Source: an uncultured Alphaproteobacteria bacterium (GTDB taxonomy: Bacteria; Pseudomonadota; Alphaproteobacteria; HIMB59; GCA-002718135). From it: a DNA stretch of 64,000 bases. The stretch covers positions 1-64,000 of the forward strand of contig CABYXC010000008.1 in assembly GCA_902522865.1 (NCBI GenBank). Reading direction: 5' to 3'. The notes beneath the pieces are model-generated. The model was not told where the DNA came from. It saw only the letters and a list, made by a program, of their open reading frames with translations, and searched no databases. Positions 7,835 to 63,526 of this stretch are shown piece after piece (position 1 is the first letter of the stretch; each line of letters starts with the position of its first letter). The translations under genes were made by a program, and so were the position numbers.

Positions 7835-8176
7835 ATGGAAGCATTTGGAACATTTTTACCACTTATATTAATATTTGTAGTTTTTTATTTTTTATTAATT
7901 AGACCACAACAAAGAAAAGTTAAACAGCACAAAGAAATGCTATCCAATCTCAAAAGAGGTGATAAAATAGTAACTTCAGGTGGAATCATTGGAACTATAA
8001 ACAAAGTAGCCGATAATAGGGAATTAACCTTAGAAGTTGCTGAAAATGTTGAAATAAAAATTGCATCCGGAATGGTTGCAGATTTATACGCAATGCCAGA
8101 AGTTCAAAAAAAAGAACCACCAAAAGATGAGAATAAAAGTAAATCCAGCTTCTCTTTATTTTCTAGAAAAAAATAA
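7835..8176 (+). CDS. yajC: Preprotein translocase auxiliary subunit YajC
   Basis: A 113-residue single-span inner membrane protein that associates with SecD-SecF and SecYEG. Residues 6-24 form one membrane helix ending in the family motif FLLIRPQQRKVKQHKEM, followed by LKRGDKIVTSGGIIGTI. The C-terminal tail is charged and low complexity. Immediate position before secD (12-base gap) is the standard order. Confidence 0.95.
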   Translation: MEAFGTFLPLILIFVVFYFLLIRPQQRKVKQHKEMLSNLKRGDKIVTSGGIIGTINKVADNRELTLEVAENVEIKIASGMVADLYAMPEVQKKEPPKDENKSKSSFSLFSRKK

Positions 8177-8188
8177 ATTTTTTTATTA

Positions 8189-9739
8189 ATGAAAAATTAT
8201 CCCATCTGGAAATCATTTACAGTAGTATCATTAGTTTTATTAGGAATAATTTTTGCAATTCCTTCAATTATTTATGATGAAAATTCAGAAAATTGGTTTT
8301 TAAAAAATAAGATTAATTTAGGTTTAGACTTACAAGGTGGATCATATTTATTATTAGAAGTTCAACTAGATGTTTTATATAAAGAAGAATTAGATAATTT
8401 TGTCGATAGTGTTCGTTTGATTTCTAGAGATCAAGCTGTGAAAATTGAAAAAATTGATATTCAAGAAAATGAAGTTGTAGTTTTTTTTGGTAATAAAGAG
8501 AAGATAAAAGATATTAGAGATAGTTTTTTTCAAATGTATAGAGGAGTTACTTTACAAATTAATAACAATAAACTCAGTATAAAGTTAAATGATGAATATA
8601 AAAAAATTATTCAAGACTCAGCAATTAAGCAATCACTTGAAATTGTTAGAAAAAGAATTGATGAATCTGGAACTAAAGAACCTTTAATACAAAGATCTGG
8701 TAAAAAGAGAATACTTTTACAATTACCAGGAGTAAAAGACCCAGAAAGAATTAAAGATTTATTAGGTAAAACAGCCAAACTAACTTTTCACATCGTTGAT
8801 AATGATAATGTATCTGCTATTCAAAACAACTTAGCTTCTTTTGGAAAAATTATTGTTCAAGACATGTATGATGAAAATACAAAATACTTATTAGATAAAA
8901 GAGCAGTCGTAGGTGGAGAAAATTTAGTAGATGCGAAAGGTTCTTTTGATCAAACAGAGGGTCATGCAGTGTCATTCCGCTTTGATACAGAAGGTGCGCA
9001 AAAATTTGGTAAAGTTACAACAAACAATATTGGTAAAAATCTTGCTGTTGTATTAGATGGTGTAGTTATCACAGCACCTAGAATTAGTAGTGCTATTACA
9101 GGAGGCTCAGGTATTATAACTGGTAATTTTAATGCTCAAGAAGCATCTGATTTAGCAGTTTTATTAAGAGCTGGTGCTTTACCTGCGCCTTTAGAAATAG
9201 TTGAAGAAAGATCAGTAGGCGCTGGTTTAGGAGCAGACTCAATAGCTGCCGGTCAAATAGCTGCTATCATTGGTATGGTCTTAGTGTGTGTATTTATGAT
9301 ACTTATCTATGGAACATTTGGGGCTCTTGCTAACATTTCGTTAATAGTAAATTTATTTATAATTATTTCATTATTAGGAACAATTGGTGCAACATTAACA
9401 TTGCCTGGTATAGCTGGAATTGTATTAACAATTGGAATGGCAGTAGATGCAAATGTTTTAATTTTTGAAAGAATTAAAGAAGAGAGTTTAAAACAAACAA
9501 AAGTTTTTCAGATTGTTAAAAATGGTTTCGATAGAGCTATGTCAACTATACTTGATGCCAATATTACTACTCTAATTGCTGCTGTGTTACTATTTGCATT
9601 TGGATCTGGTCCAATAAGAGGTTTTTCCATTACACTGTCTTTGGGTGTGATAGCATCAATGTTCACAGCTTTAATGCTAACAAATTTTTTAGTATATATG
9701 TACTTATCATTTGCAAATAAAAAGGAATTAAAACTATAA
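8189..9739 (+). CDS. secD: Protein translocase subunit SecD
   Basis: A 516-residue RND-type membrane protein that uses the proton motive force to help release proteins on the periplasmic side of SecYEG. N-terminal helix, then the signature NLGLDLQGGSYLLLEV near residue 48, periplasmic P1 domain with LRKRIDESGTKEPLIQRSG-like text (IVRKRIDESG), and five C-terminal membrane helices with GMAVDANVLIFERIKEE. Its stop overlaps the secF start in TAATG at 9737-9741, indicating coupled translation. Confidence 0.96.
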   Translation: MKNYPIWKSFTVVSLVLLGIIFAIPSIIYDENSENWFLKNKINLGLDLQGGSYLLLEVQLDVLYKEELDNFVDSVRLISRDQAVKIEKIDIQENEVVVFFGNKEKIKDIRDSFFQMYRGVTLQINNNKLSIKLNDEYKKIIQDSAIKQSLEIVRKRIDESGTKEPLIQRSGKKRILLQLPGVKDPERIKDLLGKTAKLTFHIVDNDNVSAIQNNLASFGKIIVQDMYDENTKYLLDKRAVVGGENLVDAKGSFDQTEGHAVSFRFDTEGAQKFGKVTTNNIGKNLAVVLDGVVITAPRISSAITGGSGIITGNFNAQEASDLAVLLRAGALPAPLEIVEERSVGAGLGADSIAAGQIAAIIGMVLVCVFMILIYGTFGALANISLIVNLFIIISLLGTIGATLTLPGIAGIVLTIGMAVDANVLIFERIKEESLKQTKVFQIVKNGFDRAMSTILDANITTLIAAVLLFAFGSGPIRGFSITLSLGVIASMFTALMLTNFLVYMYLSFANKKELKL

Positions 9740-10638
9740 TGTTTGGTTTAAATAAAATTATTCCTGTTGAACCTAATATAAATTTTTTAGGTTTAAGAAG
9801 AAATTTTTTAATTTTTTCTATTTTAGCAATATTAATTTCCATTGGTCTATTAAGCATAAAAGGTTTAAATCTTGGTATTGATTTCAAAGGAGGTACTTTA
9901 ATAGAGGTAAGTACAAAAAATACTTCAATTGGTGAACTAAGAGAAATTTTATCTTCTTCTTATAGTGATGTATCTTTACAGGAATTTGGTAATGAGAATA
10001 TTATTTTAATAAGACTTCAAAATAAAAGTAATCAAGAAAGTATTGAAACAGTTAATTCTGTCAAAAATTTAATTCAAGACAAGGTTGTTGAGTTTAGAAG
10101 GTCTGAATTTGTTGGCCCTACAATTAGTTCTGAACTTCTGTTTAGAGGATTTCAGGCTGTCTCTTTTGCATTAATTGCTATTTTAATTTACATTTGGCTG
10201 CGTTTTGAATGGCAATTTGGCTTTGGTGCAGTTGTTGCCTTGACTCATGATGTATTATTTACTCTTGGTTTGCTTTCTATTCTAAACGTTGAATTTTCTC
10301 TCGCAACAATAGCAGCAATTCTGACAATTGCTGGATATTCTATTAACGACACAGTTGTAATATTTGATAGGGTTCGTGAAAATTTAAGAAAATATAAAAA
10401 GCTTGAGTTAGTTGATCTATTTAACTTATCAGTTAATAATACTTTATCCAGAACTATAATGACTAGTTTAACTACACTTCTTGCATTAGTTTCTTTATTT
10501 GTTTTTGGAGGAGAGGTAATTAGACCTTTCGCTTTGACAATGATTATAGGTGTAATAATTGGAACCTACTCATCTGTTTTTATTGCGGTCCCAACTTTAT
10601 TAATTTTTAAGTTTAGACCGCAAGATGAAGATGATTAA
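9739..10638 (+). CDS. secF: Protein translocase subunit SecF
   Basis: A 299-residue partner of SecD. The family block LGIDFKGGTLIEV lies near residue 42 and the membrane motif TIAGYSINDTVVIFDRVREN near residue 195; six membrane spans are expected. The start ATG overlaps the secD stop. The 3' end overlaps the convergent superoxide dismutase gene by four bases, so transcription termination must occur inside that gene. Confidence 0.96.
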   Translation: MFGLNKIIPVEPNINFLGLRRNFLIFSILAILISIGLLSIKGLNLGIDFKGGTLIEVSTKNTSIGELREILSSSYSDVSLQEFGNENIILIRLQNKSNQESIETVNSVKNLIQDKVVEFRRSEFVGPTISSELLFRGFQAVSFALIAILIYIWLRFEWQFGFGAVVALTHDVLFTLGLLSILNVEFSLATIAAILTIAGYSINDTVVIFDRVRENLRKYKKLELVDLFNLSVNNTLSRTIMTSLTTLLALVSLFVFGGEVIRPFALTMIIGVIIGTYSSVFIAVPTLLIFKFRPQDEDD

Positions 10639-52624: not shown

Positions 52625-53872
52625 ATGCAAAATAATTATTTTTATAAATGGATAGATAGTAATAAAGATGATGAAATAAATAGTTTCAAAGAATGTATCG
52701 ATTCATATATTTATTTTAAGAAAGATGCTTTTTATAAAACTAACAAATTAATTAAAAAAAAACCAGAATTTAATGCTCCAAAATTATTAAAAATAGTTTT
52801 ATTGCTTTTTTCTAGAGATGTACAAAAAATTTCATTAGCTAGAGAAACATTCAAATTAATTTCCACTGATGAAGTAAATGATTATTTTCATCAATATTTA
52901 GAGATAGTAAATCTCTGGATTAAAAATGATTTAAAAAATTTATTAAATAAATTGGAATTAATTATAAAAGATAATCCCAAAGATATTTTTGCAATCAGAT
53001 TATTTCATTTTAATAATATTTTCTTGGGTATTGATAGTAAATTTTTAAATAAACATGAGGAAATACTAAGTAAGTGGTCTGAAAATGATCAGCATTACAA
53101 TTTACTATTAGGGATGACTAGCTATGCTTTTGAAGAAAATAATATAATTGATAAAGCTAAGCTTTTAGCTTTAAATTCACTAAAACAATCATCAAATGAC
53201 TTATGGAGTTGGCATGCCCTTTTGCATGTACACGATAATGAGAATAACAACTCTATTAACAACAATGATAATTTTAATAAAATTAATTGGTCAATTTACG
53301 GTCCAATAAAAAGACATATATGGTGGCATCAATCATTAATATTATTCTACAATCAAGAATATGAGAAAAGTTTAAAACTATTTGATAATTATTTCTCTTC
53401 TTCAGAAATTTTTTATTTAGATTTTTGTAATGCTTGTTCTTTTTTATTAAGACTTCATTACAAAGGAGTGGATGTTAAAGAAAGAATGGATAAATTAAAA
53501 GATTATGCTGAATATTTTAAAAATCAACACATACTTCCATTCATTGATTATCATCTTATTTTTTATTACTTATACTATAATGACCAAGATTATTTTCAGC
53601 AACTTGAAGAGAAAATGGAAGAAAATTATTTAGAAAATTCTTTTAAAGAAAATTATATTAATTACTTAAAGCCAATCATTCACAGTATGAAAACAAATGA
53701 ATTATTAAACGAAAATATAATTAAATCACAATTTAAATACCTTGGAGGTAGTTTTGCTCAACGAGAACTTATTTTTTTAAGTTTAATCCAAAATACAAAA
53801 TATGAAAAGAATAAATCAGATTTAATATCAGAATATAATGATTATAAATCAGTATCAAAATTATATGTATAA
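52625..53872 (+). CDS. TTC38-like tetratricopeptide repeat protein
   Basis: A 415-residue all-helical protein. The centre matches the TTC38 family: DIFAIRLFHFNNIFLGIDSKFLNKHEEILSKW, LLLGMTSYAFEENNIIDKAKLLALNSLKQSSNDLWSWHALLHVHD and HIWWHQSLILFYNQEYEKSLKLFDNYF. The Trp and His residues in WSWHALLHVH and WWHQSL are invariant features of the family, hinting at a metal or ligand site and not pure scaffolding. No catalytic role is established for TTC38. It overlaps the D-apionate-lactonase-like gene, so the two are co-translated. Confidence 0.8.
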   Translation: MQNNYFYKWIDSNKDDEINSFKECIDSYIYFKKDAFYKTNKLIKKKPEFNAPKLLKIVLLLFSRDVQKISLARETFKLISTDEVNDYFHQYLEIVNLWIKNDLKNLLNKLELIIKDNPKDIFAIRLFHFNNIFLGIDSKFLNKHEEILSKWSENDQHYNLLLGMTSYAFEENNIIDKAKLLALNSLKQSSNDLWSWHALLHVHDNENNNSINNNDNFNKINWSIYGPIKRHIWWHQSLILFYNQEYEKSLKLFDNYFSSSEIFYLDFCNACSFLLRLHYKGVDVKERMDKLKDYAEYFKNQHILPFIDYHLIFYYLYYNDQDYFQQLEEKMEENYLENSFKENYINYLKPIIHSMKTNELLNENIIKSQFKYLGGSFAQRELIFLSLIQNTKYEKNKSDLISEYNDYKSVSKLYV

Positions 53873-55679
53873 TTCTAAATTATTAGAAGAAAAATTTATA
53901 AAAAATTCAAATAATAATTTTACCTTATTAAAAGATAATCTTTTTTTTCGAAATATAACTTTTCAAAATTTTCAAATTTTAAAGATGATATCATTTTTGG
54001 TAAGAAACAAAAATTGGAATAACTATGATCCTAAAATTCTAAATTATGAAGAGAACTTTGATACATCCTTAGAATATATATTCGATTTAGAATATGGTAT
54101 AGATGAAATTCTTAAAACAAGAAATGTTATATTATTTTCTGATAATTCTATCACTCTATCCTCTGAAGGAGAATTTTTAACTGATTTTTGGACTAATAGA
54201 ATAGGTTTTAATTTATTAATTCCATTACAAAATCATGTTGGTTCAAACATCATTGTAACAAAAGGGAACGATTTAAAAGAGGAAAAAAAATTTCCAGAAA
54301 ACATAAAACCCGACCAACCATTTTTTAAATTTAAAAACCTTGCTTATACTTTAGACGATAGTTTGTTGGTTAATATTAATTTTGAGGGTATTTTATTTGA
54401 AATGGAGGATCAAAGAAACTGGGGTGATGCCTCTTATAAAATATATAGCGGCTCCTTATTAGAACCTTTCCCATATGTAGAAAAAGGGGGGACTAATTTC
54501 TCTCAAACTGTTAAAATAGATTTAGTAAATAAAAAACAAAGATCTTTCCCGTCTAAGAATATTGTAAAAATTGATCATACTACTCCTTATAAATTTCCTA
54601 AAATTGGTATAAAAATTGATTCTTTAATTGTTCCTGATGATAATTTAATAAATAACTTTGATTATTATTACTATCTTATTGATTTTACTGAAGATTTTAC
54701 GAATGTAACTTCAAGATCTCAAAACAAAGTATTCCTTGTAGCTTTGGTTGATCATACTAATGATCCTGATGATGAGTTAAAAAAAATTTACAATTTTGTA
54801 ACTGAAAATACTATTAATTTAGATAAAATTTTAATTTGTCCAAAAATATATTTGAATAGTTTTCAACCAGCTGGTGAATGGCCTAAAGCTCCGGAATTAA
54901 ATGAATACTATAAAATTGCGAAAAAGATATTTTCTAATAGTGAAATTGTTTCTGGAATGGTCACTAATTTTACAGAATTAAATAGAAAAAGACCAAAAAT
55001 GTTTTATGATTTGGTTAGTTTTTCCTTCACTCCAATTGTTCATGATTCTAGTGATTTTGGTGTATTAAATACACCTGAAACTATACCTTATATCCTTAAA
55101 ACTCTAAAAAATTTTTCTAATAGTACCAATGTTCATATTGGTCCAATTTCTATTGGTATGCATTTCAATCCTTATGGTGAAGGTCTTGTAAGTAATAAAA
55201 ACAAAATAAGATTAGAAATGGCTGATAGCGATCCAAGGCATGATCAATTATTTTCACTAACTTGGACACTGGCAATTTTTATTCAATCAATAAATAAAGA
55301 ATCAAAATTTTTTACTTTTAATTCTATTTATGGGCATCATGGAATATTAAATAAAGATAATACCAAAAGACCATTGTATCATTTAAATAATTTTCTTATT
55401 TCATTAACAAATTCAGAAATTTTTAAATTTAATCCAGTTAACGAAGTGTATGGATTAAAAATCGTACTAAATGATAAAAAGTATTATTTATTTGTTAATT
55501 CCTCAAAACAAAAAAAGGAAATTATTATTCCTGAAATAAATTTTAGTAATCAATATAAGCTTAATTTAAACAATTATACTGATATTTTTAATAATGATTT
55601 TTCTTTTTTTAACTTTAAAAATGATACAAGTCCATATACGTTTGAACCCTTAGAAATTAAATTTATAGAAGATAAATGA
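53865..55679 (+). CDS. D-apionate lactonase-like protein (ApnL family)
   Basis: About 604 residues from the ATG at 53865, which overlaps the previous stop by eight bases; an ATG at 53838 would add nine residues. An N-terminal beta domain carries TNRIGFNLLIPL near residue 110, KFPENIKPDQPFF near 142 and FEMEDQRNWGDASYKIYS near 178. These match what I recall of the ApnL family, which hydrolyses D-apionolactone in apiose catabolism. A TIM-barrel-like middle part follows (NVHIGPISIGMHFNPY, ADSDPRHDQLFSLTWTL), then a small beta domain. Apiose occurs in seagrass and land-plant cell walls. The actual substrate may differ. Confidence 0.65.
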   Translation: MYNSKLLEEKFIKNSNNNFTLLKDNLFFRNITFQNFQILKMISFLVRNKNWNNYDPKILNYEENFDTSLEYIFDLEYGIDEILKTRNVILFSDNSITLSSEGEFLTDFWTNRIGFNLLIPLQNHVGSNIIVTKGNDLKEEKKFPENIKPDQPFFKFKNLAYTLDDSLLVNINFEGILFEMEDQRNWGDASYKIYSGSLLEPFPYVEKGGTNFSQTVKIDLVNKKQRSFPSKNIVKIDHTTPYKFPKIGIKIDSLIVPDDNLINNFDYYYYLIDFTEDFTNVTSRSQNKVFLVALVDHTNDPDDELKKIYNFVTENTINLDKILICPKIYLNSFQPAGEWPKAPELNEYYKIAKKIFSNSEIVSGMVTNFTELNRKRPKMFYDLVSFSFTPIVHDSSDFGVLNTPETIPYILKTLKNFSNSTNVHIGPISIGMHFNPYGEGLVSNKNKIRLEMADSDPRHDQLFSLTWTLAIFIQSINKESKFFTFNSIYGHHGILNKDNTKRPLYHLNNFLISLTNSEIFKFNPVNEVYGLKIVLNDKKYYLFVNSSKQKKEIIIPEINFSNQYKLNLNNYTDIFNNDFSFFNFKNDTSPYTFEPLEIKFIEDK

Positions 55680-56698
55680 AAAAATTAAAAGGAGCATTAA
55701 TTGGTTGTGGTTTCTTTGCTGAAAATCATATTTTAGCTTGGAATGAATTAAAAAATATTGAGATAATATGTGTTTGTGATTTAGATATTAAAAAAGCTAA
55801 TAAATTTAAATCTAAATTTAACATTTTACATTCTTATTCATCGATAGAGTTAATGTTAAAAAAACATAAAATAGATTTTGTTGATGTTGTAACAACAATG
55901 GAGACACATTTAAATATTGGTAAAATTTTATCTAAGTATAAAATTCCAACTTCTATACAAAAACCATTTGCTGAAAATTTATCAAATGCAAAAAAAATTG
56001 TTTCTTTATATAAAAAAAACAAAACACCACTTATGGTGCATGAGAATTTTAGATGGCAAAGCCCTCTATTAAAATTAAAAGAAATTATAAATAAGGAGAA
56101 GTTAACTAAACCTCATTATGCCAAAATATCTTTTAGACATGCCAATCCTGTTGGATATACCAATCAAACATATTTATATGATTTAAAAGAGTATTTAACC
56201 TTAGACGTGGGAATCCATTTATTTGATTTAAGCAGATTTTTTATGGGAGAAGCAAAAAGTATTTATACAGTTAATCAAAATACAAATAATAAATTTAAAG
56301 GTGAAACAGATTTTATATCCCTAATAAGAAATAAAAATAAAAGTATTACCATTGTTGATGCATCTATTTCTTCAATAAAAAAACCTGATAGATTTGCTCA
56401 AACACTAGTTAATTTAGAATTCTCTAACGGCTCAATTGATTTGGATTACAATTATAAAATTACTCTTCACAAAAATAATAAGAAGAAGATTTATGATGGA
56501 AAACCAAAGAAATATAAATGGATTTCAAAGCCTTGGGATCAAATTCAGGAAAGTGTAATTAATACGCACAAACATTTCATTGATTCATTAATAAATAATA
56601 TTGAACACGACACCAGCGGTGAAGATAACATAAAGAGTTTATCATTAGTCTTCAATTCATATAAATCTGATAAGCTAAGGAAAGAAGTTAAAATTTAA
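55676..56698 (+). CDS. Gfo/Idh/MocA-family oxidoreductase
   Basis: A 340-residue NAD(P)-dependent sugar dehydrogenase-like protein. Rossmann loop GALIGCGFFAENHILAWNEL near residue 5, the EKP-type catalytic block reads SIQKPFAENLSNAKKIV near 97 (Gln in place of Glu before the Lys), and HENFRWQSPLLKLKEII follows. DVGIHLFDLSRFFMG near 175 supplies the conserved Asp and His. Members act on inositols, sugars and their acids. Start overlaps the apionate-lactonase-like gene by four bases, which supports a joint sugar or lactone pathway. Confidence 0.88.
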   Translation: MKKLKGALIGCGFFAENHILAWNELKNIEIICVCDLDIKKANKFKSKFNILHSYSSIELMLKKHKIDFVDVVTTMETHLNIGKILSKYKIPTSIQKPFAENLSNAKKIVSLYKKNKTPLMVHENFRWQSPLLKLKEIINKEKLTKPHYAKISFRHANPVGYTNQTYLYDLKEYLTLDVGIHLFDLSRFFMGEAKSIYTVNQNTNNKFKGETDFISLIRNKNKSITIVDASISSIKKPDRFAQTLVNLEFSNGSIDLDYNYKITLHKNNKKKIYDGKPKKYKWISKPWDQIQESVINTHKHFIDSLINNIEHDTSGEDNIKSLSLVFNSYKSDKLRKEVKI

Positions 56699-56712: not shown

Positions 56713-59325
56713 TTAAATTGTAAATTTAGATATTTCATCTCTAATTAATTTACTTAAGAGACTGTAACCAAGTACATTCATGTGTAATGGATCTTCTGAA
56801 TAAAATTTTTCAAATCCAGCATAAAGCATTGGAGAACAAAGATCAATATAGCGCCATTGACTAAAATTCTCAATTTTATTTTTTATTCGTTCATTTGCTT
56901 CTAAAATTGTATTTAAATAATTATTTCTGAATACACTTGGTTTTATGGATACAAAAAAACATAACGTATGAGGTAATTTTTCATTAACTTCAGAAGCAAA
57001 TAATAAAAATTCATTTTCTAAATTTTCAGCACTCATTCCGCTACCTATATCATTATCACCAGCATAAAAAATCATCTTGTCAGGATTATTTGGGACTACT
57101 ATTCTGTTAAAATAGGTGCGACATGAAACTAATGTGGAACCACCAAATCCTAAGTTTAATAAACTATCAAATGACAAATCAGTTTTTGCATTTTCCCAAT
57201 CTCTAAATGTTGAACTTCCAAATAAGACTATTTTGTTATTTTTATATTGATCTGAATGTAATTTAATTTCTAATTCTCTTACGTCTGCTTCAAATTCTTC
57301 TTCAATAGGGCTAACTAAATTTAAGTTACTAACTACATCTTCATTATTAATTTTATTTTTTGAAGCAGATTTCGCTAATTCAATTGCTTCTTCAACATAT
57401 GTTCTAAAAGTTTTTCTATATTTAGATAAAAAATTTTCTAACTCTTTTTTATTTTTCATATCATTTATAAAATCTTTTATTTTTATTGGTTTTTTAATAA
57501 CTGCTGAATAAATTGTATCAGAAATTGAATAATCAAAATTGGCTAATGCAATAGGAACAAGAAGAGGCTCTGGTTTTAATTGGTCTGCTAATAAAAATGC
57601 ACCTGGTTTTAATGGGCCTGGAGAATTTGGAGTTAAATTATCTTCAGTTTCAGATGTACCTTCTGGAGCTATAACTAAAGGTCTGTTTTGATCAAAAATA
57701 TTTTGAGTTTCGATAAATAATTTGCTTTTTCTCTTCTTTTTTTGTTCTTGAGTTTCGTTTAAATAATCTGATTCTGGTGTATGGACGAAAATATAATCTA
57801 AATTCTCATAATAATTATATCTCCAGAATTCTGTATTTCTAGAATATCGAGCAATTCTTTGACCACCATCACCATATTTTGGGAATAAAATTTTTGCACT
57901 AATAAAGTGACTATCTATACTAAATTGATGTCCATTAGCTAAACCATTTTCTTCAATGCTTGCCAAATGATTATAAAAAAAAATGTTTGTAGGTTCGTCA
58001 GGTAAATTCTCCATACCTTTAATAACATAAGGCACTTGATCAAAAGCTTTTATAAAATCTGAATTTGTTAATTTTTGTAATGCTTTTTTATTTATTGAGT
58101 CATATGAGGTTGCTACTCTGTTATATATTTTGTTAAGTTGTTTGAAAAATCTATTTTTTCTTTCTATACCACTCAAAGCATCAATCATTAAACTAGCTAT
58201 AGATTTTTCATCATCATTACCTGTTATAATTAAATCATAAATTGTATCGAATGCTAAAGAATGAGTTAAATGATTTTCTAATAAATGAGGTATTGTATAA
58301 AGTTTTGAATTACTTGGTATTGTTGCAGAATTATCATTTAATAAATATTGAAAAAACTCTTTTTCATTTTTAGCTGGATATGTCGTTAAGCCTGTTGAAC
58401 TTTGAATATAACGACCTAATTGCCATAATTGTCTTTTAAAGAATTTGATTGCCAATTCTGCATTGGTTTTAATTAAATTATCAATAAACTCATTTGAAAA
58501 TTTTAATATAGTTGTATCTCTTGTTGCTTTTAATGAGTAGGGTGATACAATTTCATGAAATCCTGAAGATAATGATAATGCTACTCCTGGTCTAGCTATT
58601 GATCTTGAATTGTTTTCTAATTGATCATCTTTTAAATTTGTAAAAGATGCCTCAACCTTACCTTTTAACAAAATATTTATTCCATCTGATTTAGTGCCTT
58701 CTAGCGCTATATATTCACCTGCTGAAAATAGCCTAACGTTTGCATAGTTTATTAATTCATCGAGATCATTATCATCAAGAAAAGCTAAAAATGCAGAATT
58801 TTTAATTCTTTTTGTATTTACAATATCTCCACTAGTTTTAACACCTTCTGCTATATTAATGTTTTTTTGTTCAATAGGTTTTTTTAAATTGCGAGATGAC
58901 TCTATTAAATTAATTGATTCAAATAATAAAAAAGAATAAAAAAAACTTGCATAATCAGGATCTACTTCTTCTAATTCTTTTAATTTTTCTATTTTGATAG
59001 AAATATATTCTGAATTACCTTTAATAAATATATCCGACATATATCTGCCTGGTGCATTTAAGCCAGAAATTCCAAGAGGTGATCCTTCATTTTGTAATGC
59101 TGCTAACTTATAAAAAACATTATTATGATATTTTACATATTCCGCTTCACCTTTTAAAAGAATAAAAATTTGATCTGCAATACCATGCTGTTCTGCAATT
59201 TTGATGTCTTCATTACTTTTATGAAATTCTGCACCAGAATTTATTAAATCTTCAGTATTTTTTTTTGGAGACAAAGAAAAACCTTTATCTACAAGTATTA
59301 AAGATATTTTTTCACTTAAATTCAT
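56713..59325 (-). CDS. Four-part fusion: two cyclic-nucleotide-binding-like domains, acyltransferase and SGNH hydrolase
   Basis: An 870-residue soluble protein. Residues 30-140 and 175-310 look like cyclic-nucleotide-binding (CAP_ED) modules (DQIFILLKGEAEYV; FSAGEYIALEGTKSDGINILLKGKVEASF). Residues 430-640 resemble a PlsC-type acyltransferase: NHLASIEENG (N452, H453, with Glu in place of the usual Asp) and APEGTSETEDN (554-558). Residues 697-868 form an SGNH hydrolase: GSSTFRDW (nucleophile S705), LGFGGST, AGDND (N758) and DPLH (D845, H848), so its catalytic set is complete. It probably moves and removes acyl groups under nucleotide control. No signal peptide or strong membrane helix. Follows the YugP-type peptidase gene after 48 bases. 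Confidence 0.8.
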   Translation of the reverse strand: MNLSEKISLILVDKGFSLSPKKNTEDLINSGAEFHKSNEDIKIAEQHGIADQIFILLKGEAEYVKYHNNVFYKLAALQNEGSPLGISGLNAPGRYMSDIFIKGNSEYISIKIEKLKELEEVDPDYASFFYSFLLFESINLIESSRNLKKPIEQKNINIAEGVKTSGDIVNTKRIKNSAFLAFLDDNDLDELINYANVRLFSAGEYIALEGTKSDGINILLKGKVEASFTNLKDDQLENNSRSIARPGVALSLSSGFHEIVSPYSLKATRDTTILKFSNEFIDNLIKTNAELAIKFFKRQLWQLGRYIQSSTGLTTYPAKNEKEFFQYLLNDNSATIPSNSKLYTIPHLLENHLTHSLAFDTIYDLIITGNDDEKSIASLMIDALSGIERKNRFFKQLNKIYNRVATSYDSINKKALQKLTNSDFIKAFDQVPYVIKGMENLPDEPTNIFFYNHLASIEENGLANGHQFSIDSHFISAKILFPKYGDGGQRIARYSRNTEFWRYNYYENLDYIFVHTPESDYLNETQEQKKKRKSKLFIETQNIFDQNRPLVIAPEGTSETEDNLTPNSPGPLKPGAFLLADQLKPEPLLVPIALANFDYSISDTIYSAVIKKPIKIKDFINDMKNKKELENFLSKYRKTFRTYVEEAIELAKSASKNKINNEDVVSNLNLVSPIEEEFEADVRELEIKLHSDQYKNNKIVLFGSSTFRDWENAKTDLSFDSLLNLGFGGSTLVSCRTYFNRIVVPNNPDKMIFYAGDNDIGSGMSAENLENEFLLFASEVNEKLPHTLCFFVSIKPSVFRNNYLNTILEANERIKNKIENFSQWRYIDLCSPMLYAGFEKFYSEDPLHMNVLGYSLLSKLIRDEISKFTI

Positions 59326-59373: not shown

Positions 59374-60078
59374 TTATCTTCTTATAATTGACTTAAAAAT
59401 ATTAATAAAAGATAACAGTATTATTTTTAACCTAAATATACTCACAATTGATTGAGCTAAATATGTCAATGCAGCAGCTCTTAAAACAGATTTACATTGA
59501 TACATATTCTCTTTTGGAACATATCTTTTGAGTATTGGTAAAGCTCTCTTAAAACTTGCATCAAATTCTACAGGAAGAGTAATCAAATGGATTAAAACAT
59601 TTGTAGATAAACAACCCATTATTATTATAGCGGCAATAAGAGTGATAAATGGACTTTTAGTGAAGGCAAATATTGAAGGTAGTCCTATAATTAATAAAAA
59701 TGAACCAATTCTCTGAAAGAGCATTGTTTTTTCAATTAATGATTGTCTAAGTATAAGTGGTTTATATTTTTCTTTATCTTGAATTGCATGACCAATTTCG
59801 TGAGCAACAACGGAAATGCTTGTTATACTTTTTTTATCAAGTTTATCTGTAGCGATATGTATTTTTTTATCTTTAGGATTGTAATGATCTAATTGTTTAA
59901 TAGGATTAATTGATACATTGGTAATTTCTTCTTCTTCAAGTATTTTTTTTCCAAGCTCTCTTCCTGTAAAGGGCATATCAGGTAAAATTTTATTATATTT
60001 TTTTAAAATATAATTTACCCATAAACTTGGTAGAAAGAGTGCCATAAATGGTAAAAAATAGTAAAATAATTTAATCAC
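59374..60078 (-). CDS. YugP-family membrane zinc metallopeptidase
   Basis: A 234-residue membrane protein. The zinc motif HEIGH is in ISVVAHEIGHAIQD near residue 92, followed by a Glu-containing LPVEFDASFKRALPIL near 168, the family layout of Zn_peptidase_2 (YugP). About four hydrophobic segments flank it. MPFTGRELGKKILEEEEI near residue 35 is the conserved N-terminal helix. Substrate unknown. It is divergent from alaC (83 bases) and upstream of the CNB-acyltransferase-SGNH fusion on the same strand. Confidence 0.88.
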   Translation of the reverse strand: MIKLFYYFLPFMALFLPSLWVNYILKKYNKILPDMPFTGRELGKKILEEEEITNVSINPIKQLDHYNPKDKKIHIATDKLDKKSITSISVVAHEIGHAIQDKEKYKPLILRQSLIEKTMLFQRIGSFLLIIGLPSIFAFTKSPFITLIAAIIIMGCLSTNVLIHLITLPVEFDASFKRALPILKRYVPKENMYQCKSVLRAAALTYLAQSIVSIFRLKIILLSFINIFKSIIRR

Positions 60079-62668: not shown

Positions 62669-63526
62669 TTAATTTAACATTAATGATTTTAAAAAATCTA
62701 AGTTTTCAATTAATCGCCTTAATTCTTCAGGATCTAATCCTTTTAAATTTTCTTTAAATAAATTTTGATAGTCTAAAGTATCAATACGATCCGTATATAT
62801 TTCTTTTAAAGAAATTGTATTTGAATTATCATAATCATAATTCCCAATTAATATTTTTGATAATGCAGGAAATATTAGTGATGTAGTTGTATAAGTTGCA
62901 AATCCTATTTCTCTGTCTTCGTCTTGTCTTTTATCTATAAAGGTAAAATATATAGCTATTCTTGCTGCACGCGTTAATTCTGCAACAGATAATTCATTAT
63001 CTTGAGATACATCTAAAAATGAAAAAGTTTCATTAATACAATTTGCTGGATTACTATCATTATTACAAGTTTCTATTAATTGTGAATTCATTAAATTAAT
63101 TATTTCACCATAAATAATTTGGAAGACACTTGGTATTGATTCACATTTTTCATAAACAGAATAATCTGCTGAATTTAAAAAGGAATAATCTATACCGTCC
63201 CAACCATCAGGAGCTGTAACTTCAAGTAAATTATCACCATCTTTTTTTAAAAAATAATAATAACTACCATCTAGTTCACCCCATTTGTAAGCTGACCAAT
63301 CTTCTACCTTTGATGTTTTTGATACATTAAATCCAACATATGTTTCATCAATCCACATACTTGTATTATTTGATATTATGAATACTTGATATTCTGCATC
63401 ACAATCATCACTCCAAATACCTTGCATGTCTTTTGGAAAATTATCTTCAAAAATTAATTCTGCATTGAGGTTGAATGGCAACAATAAAACAATACCAAAA
63501 ATTAATTCTACTAAATTATTCTTCAT
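62669..63526 (-). CDS. Exported protein with two EF-hand-like calcium sites
   Basis: A 285-residue protein with signal peptide residues 1-22 (ending LNAEL). The first 110 residues of the mature part are beta-rich with two cysteines. Two EF-hand-like loops follow: DVSQDNELSVAE near residue 172 and DYDNSNTISLKE near 229, each with acidic ligands at positions 1, 3, 5 and a Glu at 12. Calcium binding in the periplasm is likely. The family is unknown to me. It overlaps the upstream lipoprotein gene by 11 bases. Confidence 0.7.
   Translation of the reverse strand: MKNNLVELIFGIVLLLPFNLNAELIFEDNFPKDMQGIWSDDCDAEYQVFIISNNTSMWIDETYVGFNVSKTSKVEDWSAYKWGELDGSYYYFLKKDGDNLLEVTAPDGWDGIDYSFLNSADYSVYEKCESIPSVFQIIYGEIINLMNSQLIETCNNDSNPANCINETFSFLDVSQDNELSVAELTRAARIAIYFTFIDKRQDEDREIGFATYTTTSLIFPALSKILIGNYDYDNSNTISLKEIYTDRIDTLDYQNLFKENLKGLDPEELRRLIENLDFLKSLMLN

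Follow-up and report, generated by a model that had tools for sequence, protein, structure and literature searches.

A single open reading frame on the minus strand of the window, the whole 64,000-nucleotide stretch that was analysed, encodes an 870-residue protein in which two cyclic-nucleotide-binding (CNB) modules are joined to an acyltransferase of PlsC/GPAT fold and to an SGNH hydrolase. The features of the locus are as follows.

56713..59325, minus strand: CNB-CNB-acyltransferase-SGNH fusion gene, 870 aa (ORF and full-length homologues)
58876..59325, minus strand: CNB module 1, residues 1-150 (Foldseek tandem-CNB match, Pfam in relatives, alignment)
58426..58833, minus strand: CNB module 2, residues 165-300 (Pfam PF00027, 1e-8; alignments)
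58054..58425, minus strand: helical region from CNB module 2 to the acyltransferase, residues 301-424 (low-confidence model)
57361..58053, minus strand: PlsC/GPAT-fold acyltransferase domain, residues 425-655 (Pfam PF01553 and Foldseek)
56716..57240, minus strand: SGNH hydrolase domain, residues 696-870 (Pfam PF13472; PDB sequence matches to 3p94 and others)
59374..60078, minus strand: upstream Zn_peptidase_2 gene (Pfam PF04298, 1.7e-54)

The Zn_peptidase_2 gene lies 48 bp from the fusion gene on the same strand. It recurs at L005, L034, L042 and L043, which belong to the same group, is absent from the Pelagibacteraceae-titled group described below, and is treated here as genomic context. In that second group a gene follows the fusion by about 10 bp in 4/4 loci inspected (L054, L060, L064 and L082; about 8598-9150), and Pfam assigns it to DUF4174 in L054. 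Elsewhere in the window, 52625-56698 on the plus strand holds what may be a sugar-related operon: two ORFs of 415 and 613 aa without a Pfam match and then a gene for a GFO/IDH/MocA oxidoreductase. A 285-aa protein with an EF-hand-like stretch under the Pfam cut-off is encoded at 62672-63526 on the minus strand, beside a small lipoprotein-like gene.

Architecture of the fusion protein

Pfam identified cNMP_binding at residues 198-288 (E 1e-8), Lipase_GDSL_2 at 718-855 (1.5e-6, slightly short of the curated threshold) and, also below threshold, Acyltransferase at 507-593 (0.002), and made no call for CNB module 1 of the window protein. Its relatives gave stronger matches: two CNBs in L116, L086 and L088 (57-79 bits), SGNH in L086 and L116 (52-55 bits) and Acyltransferase in L116 and L088 (31-34 bits, exceeding the cut-off). 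The parts that match weakly in the window protein are secure in these three relatives, which between them show all of the domains.

Confidence in the predicted structures was low to moderate. For the complete 870-aa chain the AlphaFold model had a mean pLDDT of 55 and matched the tandem CNBs of PKA-R and PKG in Foldseek (E about 1e-12). Because confidence in that model was low, the acyltransferase was modelled separately as residues 412-659 (pLDDT 62, pTM 0.69). The first 17 Foldseek matches of this model were GPAT, PlsC, PatA and GPAT1 structures, among them GPAT 1iuq and PlsC 5kym (best E 2.7e-4, probability 1.00). A PDB sequence search with the acyltransferase profile returned marginal matches only. 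The helical region at 301-424 is kept in all members of the fusion family.

The sequence-only reading had placed two CNB-like modules, a PlsC-like acyltransferase and an SGNH domain in one chain. The ORF was found at the stated coordinates, Pfam and Foldseek bore out the modules, and structure prediction recovered the CNB and acyltransferase folds. Its expectation that no family spans the full length also held, as NCBIfam models each cover a part only. We regard the four-part architecture as virtually certain.

Chance assembly or a frameshift artefact was ruled out by full-length orthologues. Whole-gene dN/dS is 0.05-0.19 against relatives of 70-98% identity and 0.05-0.09 against those at 91-98%. 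Calculated by part against the latter, it is 0.02-0.06 for the acyltransferase, 0.03-0.06 for SGNH and 0.06-0.20 for the CNBs. Every part of the fusion gene is constrained, the enzyme parts most.

The two catalytic sites

Residue conservation at the catalytic sites was examined in an alignment of 96 sequences. The residues concerned are listed below, all on the minus strand.

57967..57969, minus strand: H453, acyltransferase catalytic His (aligned to the NH in Thermotoga PlsC 5kym)
57952..57954, minus strand: E458, the acid proposed by the sequence-only reading (alignment)
57913..57915, minus strand: D471, likely catalytic acid, after a 17-residue insert and where the following helix begins (alignment)
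57658..57666, minus strand: P554-E555-G556, acyltransferase block III (invariant in all members examined)
57211..57213, minus strand: S705, SGNH nucleophile, block I GSST (invariant)
57052..57054, minus strand: N758, SGNH block III Asn (invariant)
56782..56793, minus strand: D845-x-x-H848, SGNH block V (D and H invariant)

H453 and the PEGTS motif are present as originally described, and P591, the block IV proline, is invariant among the family members examined. The acid was assigned differently. It had been proposed that the acyltransferase Asp is replaced by Glu (E458), but an acid (E or D) occupies this position only in the two marine groups and in homologues L122 and L123; the other members have P, A, R, G, M or T there. 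L122/L123 are also the only sequences in which D471 and H453 vary, D471 being replaced by Cys and H453 by Ser. E458 as the family-wide acid was therefore ruled out. Since H453 and D471 are lost together while the acid at 458 is kept in L122/L123, H453 and D471 appear to be the working pair, and they likely form the catalytic dyad of the acyltransferase. In the model of residues 412-659 a strand (448-456) leads through a low-confidence loop to a helix (472-484) directly after D471, a predicted strand-loop-helix that corresponds to the PlsC arrangement with an insert. If so, the H453/D471 spacing would extend the HX4D rule of the acyltransferase superfamily. E/D458 may still have a role within the two marine groups, where the position is always E or D. 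Glu at this position is not abnormal, as the PlsC of the same genome (L001) has H-x4-E (KHQSAFE).

L122 (1053-3713) and L123 (8179-10791) are full-length homologues that lack H453, D471 and the segment after R493 and keep the SGNH site; judged from these losses, they are putative natural pseudo-acyltransferases. Their existence indicates that the esterase can persist without acyl transfer, and raises the question whether, throughout the family, the acyltransferase fold serves for binding or as a pseudo-enzyme, leaving a CNB-regulated esterase only. Retention of the whole architecture in L122/L123 and the unusual H-to-D spacing agree with this explanation. However, the dyad and PEG are invariant in all other lineages, dN/dS is lowest, or close to lowest, in the acyltransferase part, and CNB-CNB-acyltransferase proteins occur without SGNH. 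We consider a family-wide pseudo-enzyme unlikely.

The SGNH site is complete. Blocks I (Ser), II (Gly), III (Asn) and V (Asp-x-x-His) are all present and conserved, and of the set named by the sequence-only reading (S705, G728, N758, D845/H848) all but G728 are invariant. Block II is GFGG (726-729), in which G726 and G729 are conserved; G728 is N or S in 3/9 gammaproteobacterial sequences, with G726 and G729 unchanged.

These residues bear on a possible acyl relay, in which the PlsC-like domain would load an acyl group and the SGNH serine would pass it to the final acceptor, so that SGNH acts as a second transferase. AT3-SGNH (OatA, OafB) and MBOAT-SGNH (PatA/PatB) systems work in this way (PMC12148441, PMC7448272), and the fusion and adjacency of acyltransferase and SGNH fit such a scheme. 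The transferase SGNHs, however, have altered oxyanion holes, and the AT3- and MBOAT-partner enzymes OafB and PatB fail to keep both the Gly of block II and the Asn of block III (PMC7448272, PMC12148441). The fusion retains the two residues, and on that ground hydrolysis is favoured over relay. Acyl transfer by PlsC-type enzymes is direct from the thioester, there is no membrane to cross, and L122/L123 have SGNH without the acyltransferase dyad. Taken together, these points make a relay improbable.

Sensor modules, distribution and esterase partners

The canonical CNB on the MscS channel of the same genome, GEGSLLTGEPRSA, served as reference for comparison of the binding cassettes. The phosphate-binding cassette Glu for cAMP/cGMP was found in neither CNB of any member: in both modules the ribose-binding Glu is replaced by Ile, Val, Trp, Leu or Phe. 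In CNB1 the substitutes are Ile, Val or Trp (I86 in the window protein), and an invariant Arg, R94, lies one residue off the canonical place. CNB2 lacks both the canonical Glu and the canonical Arg. A search for class I and class III cyclases found none in carriers G158 and G142 (both 100% complete) and G660 (99%). Because neither CNB has the ribose Glu and complete carriers have no class I or III cyclase, gating by a cyclic nucleotide is unlikely. The control by cyclic nucleotide suggested by the sequence-only reading, which named adenylate cyclases in related genomes as a check, is thus not borne out. CNB domains can switch ligand, as those of trypanosomatid PKA have done to nucleosides (PMC10959531). 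As a tractable set of CNBs without the standard cyclic-nucleotide contacts, the fusion family offers a way to find a new ligand for this domain.

A model in line with the sequence-only reading is cyclic-nucleotide-gated phospholipid remodelling by deacylation and reacylation, like that of NTE/PNPLA6-7. The resemblance of the tandem CNB fold to PKA-R and PKG, the nearness of the acyltransferase fold to GPAT and PlsC, and the presence of two class III cyclases in the source genome are in its favour. The absence of the ribose Glu from both CNBs of every member and of class I/III cyclases from G158, G142 and G660 is against it. The cyclases of the source genome are explained without the fusion protein, since the two class III cyclase genes flank a gene for an MscS-type channel whose C-terminal CNB is canonical (L124, G000:C7:30000-40000). 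This arrangement, in a 1.4-Mb marine genome, is likely a self-contained cyclic-nucleotide-gated mechanosensitive channel. An exchange of the esterase for AXE1, described below, is also atypical for a phospholipase, and we think gated phospholipid remodelling a poor candidate.

A scan of bacterial genomes recovered 80 loci in marine alphaproteobacterial genomes, with identities of 54-100% and in most cases over the full length. The window protein belongs to what we take to be the HIMB59/AEGEAN-169 lineage; a match at 94% identity comes from Pelagibacteraceae bacterium AG-337-I02, which NCBI assigns to Candidatus Pelagibacterales, and one marine group at about 55% identity is titled Pelagibacteraceae. 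Within its own GTDB order the fusion gene is present in 56/162 genomes, all in its own genus. Outside this lineage its distribution is patchy. Full-length fusions occur in a second alphaproteobacterial genus (G562, G660) and, at ~30% identity, in a gammaproteobacterial genus. In the class of G158 only 3/229 genomes match at all, with full length in G158 only; the order of G158 has ten full-length carriers, all in one genus. The same architecture is thus found in several lineages. Relatives are absent from viral contigs, and a viral or phage origin was rejected. Trees of the CNB-acyltransferase part and of the SGNH part each unite both marine groups, and the majority of stand-alone SGNHs fall in a clade of their own (support 94%). 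Since support is poor at the deep branches of the SGNH tree, a single ancestral CNB-acyltransferase/SGNH pairing is plausible, not proven.

When gene neighbourhoods were compared across lineages, an esterase partner was the sole neighbour in common. In Persicobacter sp. JZB09 (Bacteroidota; L116) two ORFs with one base between them take the place of the fusion: a CNB-CNB-acyltransferase of 655 aa (7881-9848) and an SGNH protein of 209 aa (9850-10479). Three genomes, G014, G010 and G623, carry CNB-CNB-acyltransferase without SGNH. Each of these 5.0-5.5-Mb genomes has exactly one AXE1 acetyl-esterase gene, which lies about 2.7 kb (G014), 0.17 kb (G010) or 0.1 kb (G623) away; no strong AXE1 match was found in fused-SGNH carriers. 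The chance of a single gene falling <3 kb away in about 5 Mb is an estimated 0.2% per genome. The AXE1 cases number three, two of them from one family, and the G623 locus is a 5.5-kb contig from a genome with 5% contamination. The G623 gene itself (L105) has an in-frame TGA between CNB1 and CNB2-acyltransferase and may be a split gene, a pseudogene or an assembly error.

A serine esterase therefore accompanies the CNB-CNB acyltransferase in fused form, as an adjacent gene, or replaced by an unrelated fold. These three forms of pairing are the strongest evidence for an acyl-on/acyl-off unit, and function on a shared acyl ester best explains their recurrence. Given the alternation of AXE1 and SGNH, the substrate is somewhat more likely to be a short-chain or small-molecule O-acyl ester than bulk phospholipid. 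In this respect the earlier proposal that acyl transfer and acyl removal occur in one complex was strengthened by the Persicobacter split operon and the AXE1 swap, and its cyclic-nucleotide control was not upheld.

Proposed function and known systems

The architecture, intact motifs, purifying selection and recurrent acyltransferase-esterase pairing were established computationally. Opposition on a common substrate and control by the CNBs are what we infer. In the reading we prefer, with a probability of roughly 0.5, the fusion is a cytosolic ligand-sensing protein with opposed acyltransferase and esterase activities on one O-acyl substrate. The PlsC-fold domain (H453/D471, PEG) would transfer acyl from a thioester donor to the hydroxyl of an acceptor, and the SGNH domain (S705, GFGG, N758, D845/H848) would hydrolyse the O-acyl ester. 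The tandem CNBs and the helical connector would set the prevailing side on binding a ligand, probably one other than canonical cAMP/cGMP; with two active sites opposed on one substrate pool, it would fall to the CNB module to set the balance. The SGNH site kept in L122/L123 without the acyltransferase dyad counts against this reading, and the two activities could instead be successive steps, not opposed ones. More tentatively, the protein may represent a novel kind of one-polypeptide metabolic switch, present in Pelagibacterales-like marine bacteria and elsewhere, in which non-canonical CNBs read some small molecule, both sites act on the same O-acyl metabolite and the esterase is exchangeable between SGNH and AXE1. 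Bacteria with very small genomes rarely retain 870-residue multi-domain regulators, so the fusion probably controls something important in ocean cells.

The combination of sensor, acyltransferase and esterase has apparently never been described. A literature search found no paper on a protein with CNB, acyltransferase and SGNH, in agreement with the sequence-only reading. It is uncommon for a single sensor to govern a bifunctional enzyme with opposed activities, in the style of PFK-2/FBPase-2, and no described enzyme of this type that unites a PlsC-fold acyltransferase with a serine esterase was found here.

The NTE family (PNPLA6/PNPLA7) likewise places several CNBs ahead of a serine lipase/esterase in one chain. 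Unlike the fusion, it has a patatin domain and a membrane anchor and lacks the acyltransferase; the window protein has no Pfam match to patatin, and its hydrolase is SGNH. The lysophosphatidylcholine hydrolase activity of PNPLA7 is largely unchanged by cNMP analogues (PMC5704489). AT3-SGNH (OatA, OafA/B) and MBOAT-SGNH (PatA/PatB) systems also pair or fuse an acyltransferase with SGNH. Their acyltransferase, however, is an integral-membrane protein unrelated to the PF01553/PlsC fold, their SGNH is extracytoplasmic with an altered oxyanion hole, and CNBs are absent. Neither an AT3 nor an MBOAT acyltransferase was matched in the window protein by Pfam or Foldseek, which recovered the PF01553/PlsC fold instead.

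With PlsC/glycerol-3-phosphate acyltransferases (PF01553) the fusion shares the fold, the catalytic His, the PEG of block III and the block IV Pro. It differs in having D471 as its likely acid instead of an Asp/Glu five residues past the His, in its PEGTS, which lacks the Arg found in PEGTR, and in its linkage to CNBs and SGNH. Its SGNH domain, which has sequence matches to solved SGNH structures, shares all four blocks with SGNH/GDSL hydrolases (PF13472; 3p94, 4iyj, 2hsj) but forms the C-terminal part of a larger CNB-bearing chain, whereas its nearest homologues found outside the fusion family are single-domain genes. Mycobacterial Rv0998/KATmt joins a CNB to an acyl-group transferase as well, although that enzyme has a GNAT fold acting on lysine, one CNB and no SGNH. 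The trypanosomatid PKA regulatory subunit, a eukaryotic kinase regulator with particular residue replacements, shares with the fusion protein tandem CNBs and a non-canonical binding cassette.
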